Shown: piece by piece, positions 53,426-61,589 of the stretch
Numbering within the stretch: position 1 is the stretch's first letter
Layout: the number at the start of each line of letters is the position of its first letter
Source of the DNA: a bacterium
GTDB lineage: Bacteria > SZUA-79 > Acidulodesulfobacterales > Acidulodesulfobacteraceae
Reading direction: 5' to 3'
NCBI GenBank assembly: GCA_021825865.1
Contig: JAKAFU010000004.1
Span: forward strand, 1 to 64,000
DNA: 64,000 nt
Position numbers and translations under genes: made by a program
Notes under the pieces: generated by a model
Databases searched by the model: none
What the model was told of the DNA's origin: nothing
Seen by the model: the letters and a program-made list of their open reading frames with translations, nothing else

Positions 53426-54925
53426 TTGGATAAAACAAGTTCTTTACCGCACCCTTATTTTGTTTCTCATCCAAACTGGAAATGGTTTATCCTTACCACG
53501 GTTTTGATAGGCGCGACCATGTCGGCGCTTGATGTCAGCATAGTAAATGTTGCCATGCCGACCATGGAACACGGTTTTAACGTTTCTATGGCGGTTATAG
53601 AGTGGGTTGCCATGGCTTACATGCTTACCCTTACCATATTCCTGCCGCTTTTCGGCAGGCTCGCCGATATGTTCGGCAGAACAAAGATGTATAATATAGG
53701 TTTCATTGTTTTTACAACCGGTTCTGCGCTATGCGGTTTTGCTCCGGATGCAAATTTTATTATAGCGTCTCGTGTTATTCAGGCTGTCGGTGCAGGAATG
53801 CTTCAGGCAAACTCCGTTGCTATAATAACTCAGGCGTTTCCTTCAAATGAATTAGGAAAAGCGATCGGTCTTCAGGGTGCTGTTCAGGCTATTGCAATGT
53901 CAATCGGACCTTTTATAGGCGGTATGATTATAAGCGCAATCGGCTGGAGATTTATATTTTATGTTAATGTTCCCATAGGAATAATAGGAACCATCGCAGC
54001 CATGTATATTTTACCGGCAAGCAAGAAAAACGAGAAAAAGGAAAAAATAGATTTTTTCGGAATTTCTGTTTTTGCAGCCGGTCTTGCATTGCTGGTTCTG
54101 GCAGTTAACCAGGGGAGCACATTTGGCTGGTCATCACCTCTAATAATCGGATTTTTTATTGCTGCTGCTATTTTGCTGCCGCTTTTTGTATATATAGAAT
54201 TAAAAGTGGAACATCCGATGATTGATTTAACGCTATTCAAAAAATGGGCTTTTTCTGCAGGAAATATAACGGGAATGATGTCGTACTACGTCCTATTTGC
54301 CGTCTTGTTTCTAATGCCGTTTTATTTTGAGGATGTTTTAAAATATAATGCTGCAGCCACAGGTATCATGCTAACGCCTATACCTCTTTCAATGGCTATT
54401 ATAGCGCCTTTTGCCGGATCTATCTCTGATAAAATAGGTTCAAGAATAATGACGTCGCTCGGAATGTTTGTATGTACAATAGCAACTCTCAGTTTTGTTT
54501 TCATCGGAACAAGTGCAAACATTATTTTACTGCTGATAGAATTTATAGTATTGGGAATCGGCATGGGTCTTTTCACGCCGCCCAACAACAGCAGCATAAT
54601 GCATTCTGCTCCTCCGGAAAGACTCGGTGTCGCAGGCGGGATACTGAATATGATGCGCGCTTTAGGATTAATATTCGGCGTTGCCATTTCAGGTCTTTTA
54701 TTTACTTCTTTACAGAATAACTATTTAACAAATTATATGGTTTCTCATCATATACATATATCGAAAGTTTCCGAAATGATAAAAAACAACGCATTTGTTC
54801 ACGGTATAGCATTCGTTATGTTCACGTTAGTTGCAATTAATTTGGTTGCAACAATTTTATCTGCTGCAAAAAAAGATGTTAAAGGCGGTAAAATTGAAGG
54901 TGCCGAACCTATAGACCTTATGTAA
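53426..54925 (+). CDS. DHA2-family (EmrB/QacA-type) MFS multidrug transporter
   Basis: The 499-aa protein has 14 hydrophobic helices, typical for DHA2. It opens with MSALDVSIVNVAMPTM, has motif A GRLADMFGRTKMY and motif C-like GAVQAIAMSIGPFIGGMI. It probably exports hydrophobic drugs or metabolites with H+ antiport. No membrane-fusion (EmrA) gene is adjacent. TTG is the start, preceded by an excellent AGGAGG. Confidence 0.92.
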   Translation: MDKTSSLPHPYFVSHPNWKWFILTTVLIGATMSALDVSIVNVAMPTMEHGFNVSMAVIEWVAMAYMLTLTIFLPLFGRLADMFGRTKMYNIGFIVFTTGSALCGFAPDANFIIASRVIQAVGAGMLQANSVAIITQAFPSNELGKAIGLQGAVQAIAMSIGPFIGGMIISAIGWRFIFYVNVPIGIIGTIAAMYILPASKKNEKKEKIDFFGISVFAAGLALLVLAVNQGSTFGWSSPLIIGFFIAAAILLPLFVYIELKVEHPMIDLTLFKKWAFSAGNITGMMSYYVLFAVLFLMPFYFEDVLKYNAAATGIMLTPIPLSMAIIAPFAGSISDKIGSRIMTSLGMFVCTIATLSFVFIGTSANIILLLIEFIVLGIGMGLFTPPNNSSIMHSAPPERLGVAGGILNMMRALGLIFGVAISGLLFTSLQNNYLTNYMVSHHIHISKVSEMIKNNAFVHGIAFVMFTLVAINLVATILSAAKKDVKGGKIEGAEPIDLM

Positions 54926-54977: not shown

Positions 54978-56750
54978 ATGCAATTATTTAATAAAAATAA
55001 TAAAAATACTCTTTTAAATAAATTTGAAAAAAAAATAATTCCCGGCATTGAAATAATTTTTCAGAGAGCTAAGGGTAACGGCGTAAATAATCTTTTTTAC
55101 GATGAGAATATTAATTATTTATTGCCTGAGGTATTATTAGATCTATCTGCTGTTAAAAAATACTCGAATATTAATTTGCTATGGTTCAGCGTGTTTGCCT
55201 TAAGCATTGCCAGGCAGAGAAGCTTTATTGTCTGCAATGCCGATTCTTTTTTTAGTTTTTCTCAGCTTGAAGACATTTTTTTAAAACCAAATCAGTTTTA
55301 TGGCGGCGTAGTAATATGTCTTCTTAATAGAAGCAGCTATAATAATTTTTCCGCTGAAATTGAAAAAAAATTTCCTATTTTTAATTATTCTAAATTAGAT
55401 GAATTTATTGATTTAATCCCTTCTGAATTTCAACTGTCTGAGAAGTTGAAACTTCCTGTAATAATTTATCTTAATAATTCTATACTGTCTGAATATAAAA
55501 TATGCGACAGCAATAAATTTGCGGAAAGAACTGAAGCAAAAACTATTCTTAAGGTGTCCGACAATTTAGAATCCGGTAAAAATCAATTCATTTTGCCGGC
55601 TAATTATGAAGGTTTTAAAAATTACAATAATTCGATTGAATTTATGCTGAATGAAAACTCTGAAAACTTAATTTTATGCGACTCTAAGGCTTTTCCGGAG
55701 ATAATAGAAAAGTTTAACGATGATAATATAATTTATTTTAAATTATTAAATCCGTTAGACCTGGAAAAACTTAGAAGCATATTTGATAATATTCCGGAAA
55801 AATTATTTAAACAGATTATCATTTATGACTGCTACAATCTATTATCAAAACCGTTATATTCTTTTTTTAAGAATAATAATAAAATTAAATTTAATAAATT
55901 AACTTTAATAAACAATTCTGCTAAGGAAAATGCCGGCTGTTTTTATCTCGAAAACTTTACTCCCGCAGATGTTCATGTCAGCCCCTCTTTTTGTATAGGA
56001 TGCAATCTTTTTGCCTTTTTACAGAAGCTCAATAAAATTGATAATAAAGATACTATCCTGGTAGGCGATACAAATTGCTTTTCGCTTATATCCTCAAGTC
56101 CTTTAAAATTCTCATTTCCGGATTTGTTTTTGATAAAAGAGCCCGTTTATTTTATTTCAAACATGGATACTAAAAATTTAAACAAAAAAATTTACCTGAT
56201 TATATCTTATTCTAATTTCTTAAATAATATTAACTTAATTATCGATAAGATAAACAATCTTGCCCCTAAGGAAACAATGTATTTTGTTGTTTATGATTCA
56301 ATTTTTGATTATAGTAATAATTCTATAAAAATTAATTATGATTTACCGCAGTTAAAAAATATTAAAACAGAAATATTAAAAAATAACTCAACTCTTCATG
56401 ATTTTAAAACACAATATAAAGCTAACCTCATTTTTATTGAAGATAATTGCATAAAAAAATCCGGCGGAACCAAGAATTACGACTTTTATAGATATTTAAA
56501 AATTAATAACGATATTTGTTTAAAATTTGAATGTAAACTATGCTTTCAAACTAGCGGCTGTCCTGCTATTAAAATAGAAGAAACAAATAATTTTGTTATT
56601 GACCCTGTTATATGCACGCATTGCAAATTATGTATTGCAATTTGTCCTCATAACGCTATAAAAATGCATAAGAGAAGAAAAGTAAAAATTAAGGAGAACA
56701 TAGAAAATAAAATTAATCTAAAAAAATTTAAGAAAAATAAAATTACTTAG
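54978..56750 (+). CDS. Degenerate IorA-like protein (indolepyruvate:ferredoxin oxidoreductase alpha-like) with intact-looking Fe-S tail
   Basis: The 590-aa protein shows the outline of IorA: a mid region SFCIGCNLFAFLQKL (for PxLCPGCPHR), then VGDTNCFSLISSSPL (for GDIGCYTL), and a C-terminal ferredoxin-like domain with C519, C522, C528 and C546-x2-C549-x2-C552-x3-C556. The thiamine-diphosphate/Mg site GDSTFFH is replaced by ISYSNFL and the following helix motif is also lost. The first Fe-S motif has C514 at an unusual spacing. The next gene is IorB-like. Very AT-rich with many Asn/Lys codons. A keto-acid oxidoreductase activity seems unlikely as it stands. Confidence 0.55.
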   Translation: MQLFNKNNKNTLLNKFEKKIIPGIEIIFQRAKGNGVNNLFYDENINYLLPEVLLDLSAVKKYSNINLLWFSVFALSIARQRSFIVCNADSFFSFSQLEDIFLKPNQFYGGVVICLLNRSSYNNFSAEIEKKFPIFNYSKLDEFIDLIPSEFQLSEKLKLPVIIYLNNSILSEYKICDSNKFAERTEAKTILKVSDNLESGKNQFILPANYEGFKNYNNSIEFMLNENSENLILCDSKAFPEIIEKFNDDNIIYFKLLNPLDLEKLRSIFDNIPEKLFKQIIIYDCYNLLSKPLYSFFKNNNKIKFNKLTLINNSAKENAGCFYLENFTPADVHVSPSFCIGCNLFAFLQKLNKIDNKDTILVGDTNCFSLISSSPLKFSFPDLFLIKEPVYFISNMDTKNLNKKIYLIISYSNFLNNINLIIDKINNLAPKETMYFVVYDSIFDYSNNSIKINYDLPQLKNIKTEILKNNSTLHDFKTQYKANLIFIEDNCIKKSGGTKNYDFYRYLKINNDICLKFECKLCFQTSGCPAIKIEETNNFVIDPVICTHCKLCIAICPHNAIKMHKRRKVKIKENIENKINLKKFKKNKIT

Positions 56751-56843
56751 TTTTACTTATAATCGAAAAACATTATTAAATTGAATTATAACTTAAATTT
56801 ATTTTAAACTTAAATTTATTTTAAAAAGGATAAGTCAAAATAG

Positions 56844-57434
56844 ATGGAAAATATTAATTTTAATTTTGTTATTAACGGAGCTGACATCGAAGAAATAAAA
56901 TTTTTAAGTCAGATATTATATTTATCATTATTAAATGAAAATTATAATACCTCAATCGCAATTAAATCGCTGTCAAATATTTCTAATTACAATTTTGCTT
57001 CCAGCCTTATAAAAATCGGCAGTACCCGTTCAGCCGTATGCGCAAAAAATATAAACGCATTAGTCAGTCTAGATTACCAGTCTATAGTGAACTATTTAGA
57101 TTTTTTTGACAGCAGCACAATAGTATTAGTTAATTATTCTAAATTTAATATATGCAATTATTTTCTTTCAGACAATGATAATGTTGACAAAAATATAAAA
57201 CAAAAAACAGCTAATCTGCTTAAAATTCCGGTAGAAAAAATAGCAAATATTGATCTAATGGGTAAAAATAAGGTAAGTCCTAATATTTCTTTGCTGGGAG
57301 CATTATCCGCAAAATCCGGGATAATTGATTTAAATAATATTACGTCTGTTTTAGCTTCTATGGCTAAAAACGATGCTGAAAAGAAGAACTACATAAACGC
57401 TTTAATTGCAGGTTACGATTTTGCTAATTCTTAA
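56844..57434 (+). CDS. Degenerate IorB-like protein (2-oxoacid oxidoreductase gamma-like)
   Basis: The 196-aa protein aligns by eye with IorB/POR-gamma proteins: FNFVINGADIEEIKFLSQILYLSLLNE replaces the ...VGVGGQGxxxxSxxL opening, and SLIKIGSTRSAVCAKNINALVSLDYQSIVNYLDFF follows the 'RIG...GEADVLIALE..EALRY' course. The glycine-rich GGQG and the MAQRGG motif are lost. AAGGATAAG lies before the ATG, 93 bp after the IorA-like gene. The pair probably evolved from IorAB and now acts differently or is decaying. Confidence 0.5.
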   Translation: MENINFNFVINGADIEEIKFLSQILYLSLLNENYNTSIAIKSLSNISNYNFASSLIKIGSTRSAVCAKNINALVSLDYQSIVNYLDFFDSSTIVLVNYSKFNICNYFLSDNDNVDKNIKQKTANLLKIPVEKIANIDLMGKNKVSPNISLLGALSAKSGIIDLNNITSVLASMAKNDAEKKNYINALIAGYDFANS

Positions 57435-57444
57435 CAAAAATTTA

Positions 57445-57900
57445 TCAATTTGAAGTTTTATTTTTGCAATTATTGCATAGACCGAAAAACTCGACATTGT
57501 ATCCAGTGATACTATATTCTTTTTTTAATTTAGGGTTAATATAAATTTCAGTCATTTCATCGTTCGAATCGTCATAAACCTGTAAATCAATTATTTCTTT
57601 GCAGCTTCTGCAAATTATATGCGCGTGAGGGGACACATCGCCGTCATATCTGACAGCACTTTGAAAAGATTTAATTTCACGGACTTCATTTATTTCCAAA
57701 AGCATAGCAATATTTTTATATACGGTATTCAGAGAAATCATAGGATAAACTGATTTTACCCTTGAATAAACGTCAACTGCAGAAGGATGATTTTTTGATT
57801 CTGCAAGTATCCTAATAATTTCATATCTTTGAGGGGTAAGACTATAACCGTGTTTTTTTACTTTATTTAATATTTGGTCTAACCTGTTATTGTTAATCAT
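57445..57900 (-). CDS. Fur-family regulator, PerR-like
   Basis: The 151-aa protein has a Fur winged helix (YSLTPQRYEIIRILAESKNHPSAVDVYSRVKSVYPMISLNTVYKNIAML) and a C-terminal metal/dimer domain with HAHIICRSCKEIIDL and the second pair CNNC, giving the structural zinc Cys4 site. The motif set and length suit PerR (peroxide sensing through Fe-catalysed His oxidation), consistent with Tpx and other antioxidant genes in the window. It is convergent with the IorB-like gene. Confidence 0.92.
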   Translation of the reverse strand: MINNNRLDQILNKVKKHGYSLTPQRYEIIRILAESKNHPSAVDVYSRVKSVYPMISLNTVYKNIAMLLEINEVREIKSFQSAVRYDGDVSPHAHIICRSCKEIIDLQVYDDSNDEMTEIYINPKLKKEYSITGYNVEFFGLCNNCKNKTSN

Positions 57901-58164: not shown

Positions 58165-61158
58165 TTATACAAAGCATTTATTGTTTTTATTTAAGCTATC
58201 GTAAAAAGCTTCAAGTCTGGTAACATATCCGGCGTCTGCATTGTGTTCATCTATTTCAATTTCTAAATAAGGTTTATTTTTCATATAATCGGCAAAAAAA
58301 GTTTTGATAAATGAGTCCGGTCCGCAGCTGTAGCTGGTTAAATATACCGCATTCAGTTTAGGACTGTCTTTTATTATTTTCGCTGCCGACAATATTTTAT
58401 GTCCGGCGTGCCAGAACATATTGTCGTGTTCTGAAAATATAGACACTTCATTATAATCAAGAAAATCCATAGGCATGACCGTCATGCCTAACGATGCAAT
58501 CTTATCGGGAATTGCAAGATTAATTCCGTCATCTCCGGCATTATAAGGTCTGCCGATAAGAACGGTTATATTATCACATTTCTCAAGAATATCCCTGCCT
58601 TTATTTTTAAGTGCATTGAAAAAATCAATCTGTTTAGATAATGCATTATCTAATGCCTTAATAATTTTTTTCCTTGAAATTTTAAACTTTTTTAAATAAT
58701 GGGTTAGGCTGCGAATAGTTGTGTCTATATCCTGTTTATTATTATTTAATCTAAATTCCGGCGTGATAAGATATATGTCGCCGAAATCGACAAGCGATTT
58801 AGTAGAAAAAGGGACACCCTGTATATATGGGCACTGTGAGGTGTTCGTCTGAAGTTTATGATTTTTTTCTCTATTTATCAGTGCAGGCAGAAATATTGCA
58901 TCCACCTTCTTATCGATAAGATTTTTTGAATGGCCCAGAAGCACTTTAACCGGAAGACATGTATCTGTTATAGACTGCATATTTGAACTGCTTATTATAG
59001 ATTTATTTGTTTCATCGGATAGTATTACCGTAAAACCGAGTTCTGTAAATAAGCTGTTATAAAGCGGAAACAGGTCATATGTTTCCAAGCATAAAGGTAT
59101 GCCTATACGCGGTTTAGAGAAATCATTTTCGTTTTTTTGCTTATCATATTTTTCAAATAATAAATTTTTTCTATCAATAAAAAAATTTTTGCCTTTTTTA
59201 ATCTTATTTTTTTCTATTTCAAATATATCGCATCTTGCCCCGTAATAATGCGGCGGTTCTTTCTCCACGGAAACCTTATTAACCTCGCATAGATTTGAAC
59301 ATTTTTTGCATTCAAAAGATTCCTGTTCATATTTTCTGTTTCTTAAATCAAATCCTACAAATTTTGATTTTCCCTCCGTTCTGTAAGACAGCAATGCACT
59401 CCCTATAGCTCCTGTCACTTCATTGTGCTCCGGTACTATAATCTTTTTATTTAACAAAGTTTCAAAAGCGCTGACTACCGCCTTGTTTAATGCAACCCCG
59501 CCTTGAAAGAGGATATGTTCTCCTACAGGCTTCCCCAACACTACTTTGTTTAAGTAATTTTCAACGATAGAGTAGCTTAGTCCTGCCAGAAGCTGGTCCT
59601 TTGAAGCTCCTTTCTGCTGATGCGATACAAGATCCGATTCCATAAAAACAGTGCATCTTTCTCCAAGACTGCATGGATTCTCAGCTCTAAACGCCGATTC
59701 AGAAAATTCTTTTATTATATCAATATGCAATTTATCAGCCTGTTCCTCAAGAAAAGAACCTGTTCCTGCGGCGCATGCCTTATTCATTTCAAAATCTATT
59801 ACTACGCCGTTATTAATTCTTATGTATTTTGAATCCTGTCCGCCTATTTCAAAAACTGTATCAACTTTATCATCTATAAACACCGATGCTTCCGCTTGGG
59901 CAGTTATCTCATTTTTAACGACATCGGCACCTATAAAATCAGCAATCAGATATCTTCCGGAGCCGGTTGTGCATACCCCTTTGACTTCAGGAATTATACG
60001 GCAATCAGTGAGTTCGCAATAAATTTCAAATAATGTTTCCATTACAACTTTAATCGGCTCGCCGTTCGTTTTTTTATATTTTTTAATTACAAGCTCTTTA
60101 TTGTCATCCAATAATACTATATTAGTAGAAACGGAACCCGTATCTACTCCAATATAGACAGGAACCGTCAACCCGGCATATTTGCTCAGATTTTTGTTCT
60201 GGTCAAAACTAAAATCAGATTCTTTTTTTGCCGTCGGTTTATTAAGATTAGGGTGAGATTTTCCGGTTAATCTGCTCTCGTCTAGAAATTTTTCTAACTT
60301 ATCCAATCCGTTAAATTTAAAACAATTATTACCGTTTTTTTCGACTTCACTTTTTGATATTAGAGCAATTCCGATTGCTGCCATTACGGTATGATGCTCC
60401 GGTATAATCAATTCTCCGCGCTTCAAACCCAATACGTCTTCAAACGCACGTATCATACCTTTATTGTATGCAACTCCGCCTTGAAAAATTACCGGTTTTT
60501 TTATTTTTTTGCCTTTAGCGACAACGCCCATAAAATTCCTTGCCACGGCATAGCACAAACCTGCGACTATATCCTGTATAGGAGTGGAAATTTGCTGCAG
60601 ATGAATCATATCTGATTTAGCAAATACTGTGCATCTGCCGGCTATTTTTGCGGGATTTTCGGATGAAGCGGCTAATCTGCTAAAATCTTTTTCTATATCA
60701 ATATGAAGCCTATCCGCCTGCTGATCTAAAAATGAGCCTGTACCGGCGGCACATAAATCATTTAATCCGAAATCTTCTAAGTATATATTTCCGGTTTTTT
60801 CATTTTTATTTAATAATATAAATTTTGAATCCTGTCCGCCCATTTCGATTATTGTTTTTACCTCCGGATAAAAATATTTAACAGATTCCGTCTGGGCAAC
60901 GAGTTCGTTTATATTAGGTATGTTTAATATATCGCCGAGGGTTTTAGAGCCGGAACCGGTAACACCCATTGAATAAAAATTTTCAGCCGGAAATTTGCTA
61001 AAAGTATTTTTTAATACATCGCAGGCTGTTTTAAGAGATTCTCCGTTTGACCTTGTATATGTTTTGGCAACTATATTTAATTTTTCATCTAATATCGCAG
61101 TTTTAACAGTCGTTGAGCCTATATCTATACCTAAAAAAAACTTATTCAATTTATTCAT
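58165..61158 (-). CDS. Large double-ASKHA acyl-CoA dehydratase activase with DUF2229-type domain
   Basis: This 997-aa protein (start at the ATG 61158, after AAAAGGA; an upstream ATG at 61176 overlaps moaE and lacks such a site) has two HgdC-like ATPase modules. The first (about 1-275) has GIDIGSTTVKTAIL, CAAGTGSFLDQQAD and GRCTVFAKSD; the second (about 330-600) has GVDTGSVSTNIVLL, CAAGTGSFLEEQAD and GERCTVFMESD. A DUF2229/HgdB-like C-terminal region ends with SCGPDSFIKTFF and TRLEAFYDSL. Related bacterial fusions are often about 1400 aa, so this is a shorter form. No dehydratase subunits adjoin; the moa genes lie just upstream. Confidence 0.9.
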   Translation of the reverse strand: MNKLNKFFLGIDIGSTTVKTAILDEKLNIVAKTYTRSNGESLKTACDVLKNTFSKFPAENFYSMGVTGSGSKTLGDILNIPNINELVAQTESVKYFYPEVKTIIEMGGQDSKFILLNKNEKTGNIYLEDFGLNDLCAAGTGSFLDQQADRLHIDIEKDFSRLAASSENPAKIAGRCTVFAKSDMIHLQQISTPIQDIVAGLCYAVARNFMGVVAKGKKIKKPVIFQGGVAYNKGMIRAFEDVLGLKRGELIIPEHHTVMAAIGIALISKSEVEKNGNNCFKFNGLDKLEKFLDESRLTGKSHPNLNKPTAKKESDFSFDQNKNLSKYAGLTVPVYIGVDTGSVSTNIVLLDDNKELVIKKYKKTNGEPIKVVMETLFEIYCELTDCRIIPEVKGVCTTGSGRYLIADFIGADVVKNEITAQAEASVFIDDKVDTVFEIGGQDSKYIRINNGVVIDFEMNKACAAGTGSFLEEQADKLHIDIIKEFSESAFRAENPCSLGERCTVFMESDLVSHQQKGASKDQLLAGLSYSIVENYLNKVVLGKPVGEHILFQGGVALNKAVVSAFETLLNKKIIVPEHNEVTGAIGSALLSYRTEGKSKFVGFDLRNRKYEQESFECKKCSNLCEVNKVSVEKEPPHYYGARCDIFEIEKNKIKKGKNFFIDRKNLLFEKYDKQKNENDFSKPRIGIPLCLETYDLFPLYNSLFTELGFTVILSDETNKSIISSSNMQSITDTCLPVKVLLGHSKNLIDKKVDAIFLPALINREKNHKLQTNTSQCPYIQGVPFSTKSLVDFGDIYLITPEFRLNNNKQDIDTTIRSLTHYLKKFKISRKKIIKALDNALSKQIDFFNALKNKGRDILEKCDNITVLIGRPYNAGDDGINLAIPDKIASLGMTVMPMDFLDYNEVSIFSEHDNMFWHAGHKILSAAKIIKDSPKLNAVYLTSYSCGPDSFIKTFFADYMKNKPYLEIEIDEHNADAGYVTRLEAFYDSLNKNNKCFV

Positions 61159-61160
61159 AA

Positions 61161-61589
61161 TTAAATCCTTTTCCATTTTTCATATTCGCCGAAGGATTCT
61201 TTTTTCCATATAGGCACTGTTTCTTTTATATTATCTATTAAAAATTTTGACGCCGTATAAGAAGAATCTCTGTGCGGGCTGGAAACTGCAATTGAAATTG
61301 AAATTCCGCCTATTTCTATCTTTCCTGTTCTATGAATAACGGCAATCTTATTTAAATCATATTTTTCGAAAGCGGCGCTTATAAGTTTATCTATTTCTTT
61401 ATACGCCATTTCTTCATATGCTTCATAATAAAGAAATTTAACGGGCGTCCCGTCCTCATTATCTCTAACCGTTCCGTTAAACAAAAGTGTCGAGCCTGAT
61501 GCCGCATCATTCACAAAGTTCAAAGGTATATTTACATCAATGGGTATTTTAACTATATCTATATAATAAAAACTATTACCGATAGCCAT
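61161..61589 (-). CDS. moaE: Molybdopterin synthase large subunit
   Basis: MoaE transfers two sulfurs from thiocarboxylated MoaD to precursor Z to make molybdopterin. The 142-aa protein has GSTLLFNGTVRDNEDGTPVKFLYYEAYEEMA, IHRTGKIEIGG, SSPHRDSSYTASKFLIDNIKETVPIWKKE with the active-site lysines of this segment. AAGGA precedes the ATG. It is third in moaB-moaD-moaE, followed directly by the large activase gene. Confidence 0.96.
   Translation of the reverse strand: MAIGNSFYYIDIVKIPIDVNIPLNFVNDAASGSTLLFNGTVRDNEDGTPVKFLYYEAYEEMAYKEIDKLISAAFEKYDLNKIAVIHRTGKIEIGGISISIAVSSPHRDSSYTASKFLIDNIKETVPIWKKESFGEYEKWKRI

Follow-up and report, generated by a model that had tools for sequence, protein, structure and literature searches.

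What does a two-gene relative of indolepyruvate:ferredoxin oxidoreductase (IorAB) do once its thiamine diphosphate (ThDP) motifs are gone? The question is raised by a locus on contig JAKAFU010000004.1, within a stretch of 64,000 nucleotides that was analysed as a whole (the window), from a bacterium of the Acidulodesulfobacteraceae. Ca. Acidulodesulfobacterales has been described from acid mine drainage (PMC6776010). The gene dsrA was above the cut-off in 23 of the 30 family genomes; it was not found in the genome that carries the window, and no match was obtained in five of the seven genomes of the same genus (G000, G001, G003, G004 and G005, one of them 99% complete). A first-pass annotation of the window, made from the letters and open reading frames, had proposed that the two genes, here ORF A and ORF B, form a repurposed electron-transfer protein and are not in simple decay. 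In this study, the descent, catalytic motifs, iron–sulphur ligands, selection and neighbourhood of the pair were investigated.

Gene layout and descent of the pair

54978..56750, + strand: ORF A, putative IorA-like pseudoenzyme subunit, 590 aa, uninterrupted
Residues of ORF A: PYR-like domain at about 1–178, then a middle domain, PP-like domain at about 331–500, dicluster ferredoxin domain at 506–565
56844..57434, + strand: ORF B, IorB/POR-gamma-like subunit, 196 aa, open, GGQG lost

Both reading frames are intact exactly over these intervals, in agreement with the first-pass annotation, and the IorAB outline that it had recognised was confirmed by profile and fold comparisons tying A to IorA and B to IorB/POR-gamma. 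In the profile alignment that had been suggested as a check, a profile of A (25 sequences) and one of the family's intact IorA were aligned with 97% probability and an E-value of about 1e-10 (hhalign). The match was confident in the PYR-like domain at the N-terminus and in the ferredoxin domain and weak in the PP-like domain (59%), with a weaker segment at FCxGC...GDxxC. The best NCBIfam match of A was IOR_alpha (2.4e-16), a model matched by 25/25 orthologs of A, and its score of 59 bits lay far below the cut-off of 650.9; the intact IorA copy at C40 also falls below it with 581 bits. On A, Pfam detected nothing but Fer4-type domains (Fer4 7.6e-6), and on B a POR domain (4.5e-8), and NCBIfam matches of B to 2-oxoacid oxidoreductase gamma/IorB models were weak throughout. 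In sequence searches of the PDB, all matches of A were of ferredoxin type and all matches of B were chance ones. Because the alignment of B with intact IorB, represented by two sequences only, was weak (hhalign, 14.6%, E 0.002), the assignment of B rests on the Pfam POR domain and on its fold.

The AlphaFold model of B was good (pLDDT 86) and matched PORC/OORC gamma chains in Foldseek (best 2raa, 5e-11). The model of A was weak (mean pLDDT 62, below 50 in the ferredoxin domain) and matched ThDP enzymes and OFORs. The structural modelling suggested in the first-pass annotation was informative in part: it covered the folds of A and B, and the weakness of the model of A limits what it says of cluster geometry and pocket, which counts against the explanation that we prefer below. 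On the evidence of profiles and predicted models, A and B belong to the IorAB/OFOR superfamily by fold and descent. A second, intact iorAB had been proposed as worth looking for, and the genome holds two intact pairs elsewhere, at C40 and C25. The pair at C40 (locus L003, genome G000) is preceded by two ORFs that by eye resemble a methylene-THF reductase, MetF with a MetV-like partner.

Lost catalytic motifs and kept cysteines

56202..56222, + strand, codons 409–415 of A: ISYSNFL where IorA has the ThDP/Mg motif GDSTFYH, from hhalign and column counts
55992..56003, + strand, codons 339–342 of A: C-x-G-C with C339 and C342, the first two of the putative ligands of the proximal [4Fe-4S] cluster, invariant in 25 orthologs
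56064..56078, + strand, codons 363–367 of A: G-x3-C with C367, putative third proximal-cluster ligand; GDIGC in IorA
56448..56450, + strand, codon 491 of A: C491, invariant, fourth of the putative proximal-cluster ligands; C565 in IorA
56517..56645, + strand, codons 514–556 of A: C-x4-C-x2-C-x5-C and C-x2-C-x2-C-x3-C, dicluster ferredoxin domain, 8/8 Cys invariant

The replacement of the ThDP motif by ISYSNFL, first noticed from the letters alone, was reproduced by hhalign, in which residues 409–415 of A align with IorA 'KKIIALVGDSTFYH'. The GDSTFYH positions are replaced in 25/25 orthologs, and the position of the Mg-binding Asp is occupied by S, Y or A in all 25 and by D in none, whereas GDSTF-H and ILDN are invariant in the intact IorA of the family (12 compared). 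Intact motifs in relatives had been named as the sign of a sequencing error or misalignment; all 25 orthologs are without the ThDP motif, so both are excluded. The YPGTP motif of the PYR domain is lost in all orthologs of A, and opposite the NE motif, which carries the catalytic Glu of this domain and is invariant in the family's intact IorA, A has a gap (hhalign) in a region without a conserved Glu. The disappearance of GGQG from the small subunit was likewise borne out in every ortholog of B: where intact IorB has GxGGQG, the N-terminus of B reads INGADIEE, and N-G-A-D stands instead of the motif with G12 and D14 invariant. Judged by sequence, the pair is thus without the marks of a catalytically active IorAB, namely the ThDP/Mg motif, YPGTP and NE, GGQG, and a score above the IOR_alpha cut-off. 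Two cysteines of B (56844-57434), C66 and C104, are invariant.

The equivalent of ILDN in A, placed by eye at residues 437–440, is VVYx; its Asn position holds K, D or R, and N in two sequences. This stretch is newly constrained, Y439 being invariant and S441, I442 and D444 nearly so; together with a dN/dS of 0.13 in the PP-like domain, this would suit a neofunctionalised enzyme whose former ThDP pocket takes up a different substrate or cofactor, to be oxidised or reduced at the proximal cluster. We consider such an enzyme improbable, given that the ThDP motif is replaced by no known cofactor motif and none was found by Pfam or NCBIfam.

The cysteines of A are conserved more often than its other residues. 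Among the 25 orthologs, 12/18 Cys are invariant and 6/18 variable, compared with 53/572 invariant among the other residues (Fisher p = 1.3e-8, indicative only, as the sequences share ancestry). Eight of the invariant Cys lie in the ferredoxin domain (C514, C519, C522, C528, C546, C549, C552 and C556), and four in the ThDP half at proximal-cluster positions (C339, C342, C367 and C491). The earlier claim that seven to eight cysteines of the Fe–S domain persist holds for that domain, with eight, and was an undercount for the protein, since the four in the ThDP half had been left out. The latter correspond to C384, C387, C420 and C565 of IorA; C491 was paired with C565 by eye, judging by its position and surroundings, at a place where hhalign gives no confident alignment. 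Through IorA, they match the CxGC, GxGC and later Cys of OFOR beta subunits (e.g. residue 197 of 5b48_B), which bind the proximal cluster in OFOR structures. The first ferredoxin half of A reads C-x4-C-x2-C, unlike the C-x2-C-x2-C of IorA, and this difference counts against the explanation that follows.

We regard it as probable that A–B is a lineage-core and divergent relative of IorAB that has dispensed with ThDP/Mg2+ binding and 2-oxoacid chemistry, keeps three putative [4Fe-4S] sites and has a role in electron transfer. Loss of ThDP/Mg2+ binding would have ended the 2-oxoacid chemistry, and the kept ligands would outline an Fe–S path with one proximal [4Fe-4S] cluster in what was the catalytic half and a further two in the ferredoxin domain. 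We infer that the clusters assemble in A and that an A–B complex, perhaps A2B2 as in its relatives, would be an electron-transfer protein in which electrons run between the side of the emptied pocket and the ferredoxin domain and are exchanged with a partner protein. The two intact iorAB pairs would be left to do the original reaction. From the kept ligands, the carrying of electrons is the most likely task of A.

Distribution, selection and neighbourhood

The A–B pair was present in 25/30 family genomes from six genera in the same order and synteny, and B adjoins A in 25/25 of these. Of the five genomes without it, three (G002, G009 and, at 59% completeness, G029) also have no match to the essential aspS, and in two the contig ends nearby, 126 bp past aspS in G016 and at the MFS gene in G014. 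Absence of A–B from these five is therefore indistinguishable from missing assembly. A functional linkage drawn from the joint absence of A/B, the MFS gene and the ATPase gene was dropped, as the same genomes give no aspS match or have contigs ending at the locus. Outside the family, no full-length relatives were found in 386 sampled genomes with the B profile or in 61 with the A profile.

Strong purifying selection acts on A–B. Within the genus, dN/dS (NG86) was 0.10–0.17 for A and 0.04–0.10 for B, compared with 0.05–0.09 for intact IorA. Similar values were obtained in a second genus (A 0.12–0.19, with one near-identical pair set aside; B 0.03–0.09). By domain of A, the Fe–S domain had the lowest dN/dS (0.08), and the others ranged from 0.13 to 0.18. 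B is conserved better than A, and the protein sequence of A changes about 1.5 to 3 times faster than that of intact IorA, which counts against the explanation that we prefer. This faster change and the low GC content of the pair (A 26% and B 28%, vs 36% for aspS and 40% for the MFS gene) are what a decaying pseudogene or a sequencing or assembly error would have in its favour; the frames are nevertheless open in 25 genomes, the ligands are invariant, and the low GC is alike across genera. As dN/dS lies far below 1, and not near 1 as had been named for a pseudogene, neutral decay is excluded; this explanation is ruled out by dN/dS together with orthologs that are intact, and we give it next to no weight. 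The view that the pair is repurposed rather than decaying is supported by dN/dS, by the motif loss in relatives, by the two intact iorAB pairs elsewhere in the genome and by the Fe–S ligands being best conserved. A and B were the AT-richest among the genes measured in 8/8 related loci.

The genes around the pair are as follows:

53426..54925, + strand: MFS transporter (DHA2 type), ends 52 bp before A, syntenic
57445..57900, − strand: Fur-family regulator, convergent, syntenic
58165..61176, − strand: 'archerase'-like protein of 1003 aa, two BadF/HgdC-type ATPase domains and DUF2229, convergent

In eight related loci of 20 kb, the order was aspS-MFS-A-B facing Fur-ATPase-moaE/D-mog-cpn60, with exceptions in G007 and G008. 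At the G007 locus (L098), a different gene replaces the MFS gene and Fur is missing, and A, B and the ATPase gene stay; at the G008 locus, moaE and mog are missing. The MFS gene is thus not obligatory for A–B, being missing at the G007 locus. Promoter and terminator scans were near chance level. A sigma-70 consensus with 12/12 matches and a 17-bp spacer was located at 58107-58079 on the − strand, upstream of the Fur-family gene.

The adjoining Fur-family regulator lends some support to another role, in which A–B would be a redox or iron–sulphur sensor, a regulatory subunit or a scaffold, whose clusters report the redox state or hold the fold with no electron throughput; the pair might then bind another enzyme, such as intact IorAB or the adjoining ATPase. 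The loss of the catalytic centre with fold, pairing and cluster ligands kept would fit such a role, as would the better conservation of B, expected of an interface protein. The kept path of three clusters, however, goes beyond a sensor's need, and Fur is missing at the G007 locus. We judge this role unlikely, though deserving some weight, and redox sensing by A–B less likely than electron transfer.

The 1003-aa ATPase is encoded near B in 8/8 of the loci examined; the housekeeping genes share this synteny, so the adjacency is weak evidence for a partnership, and the 'archerase'-like ATPase as the partner of A–B is speculative. On a doubtful proposal, this convergent double-BadF/DUF2229 ATPase would have in the ThDP-free IorAB its dedicated relay of low-potential electrons. 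If true, an ATP-driven reductase would have gained its electron donor from a former 2-oxoacid oxidoreductase.

Comparison with known systems

A narrow open-access literature search found no ThDP-free member of the IorAB/OFOR group. A core, selected three-cluster 'wire' derived from a catalytic enzyme would show the recycling of electron-transfer modules, and genes like A–B advise caution against annotation as indolepyruvate oxidoreductase.

With IorAB (TIGR03336/TIGR03334), A–B shares gene order, subunit sizes and the POR-gamma fold of B, and A shares the PYR-like and PP-like domains, the C-terminal dicluster ferredoxin domain and the positions of the proximal-cluster Cys. It differs in being without the ThDP/Mg, YPGTP, NE and GGQG motifs and in the first ferredoxin motif of A. 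In OFOR/KOR/POR enzymes (PDB 5b48, 6n2n and 8ys5), the beta-subunit CxGC, GxGC and later Cys equate, through IorA, with C339/C342, C367 and C491, and the gamma fold matches B; these enzymes bind ThDP and oxidise 2-oxoacids, whereas A is without the residues for either. A PFOR-family enzyme binds its catalytic cluster through three conserved Cys and its two ferredoxin clusters through eight (PMC13285125). The C-terminal eight-Cys domain of A resembles 2[4Fe-4S] ferredoxins and the dicluster domains of RnfB and HdrA type, but in A it forms the end of an OFOR-fold protein of 590 aa that has a gamma-type partner dedicated to it.
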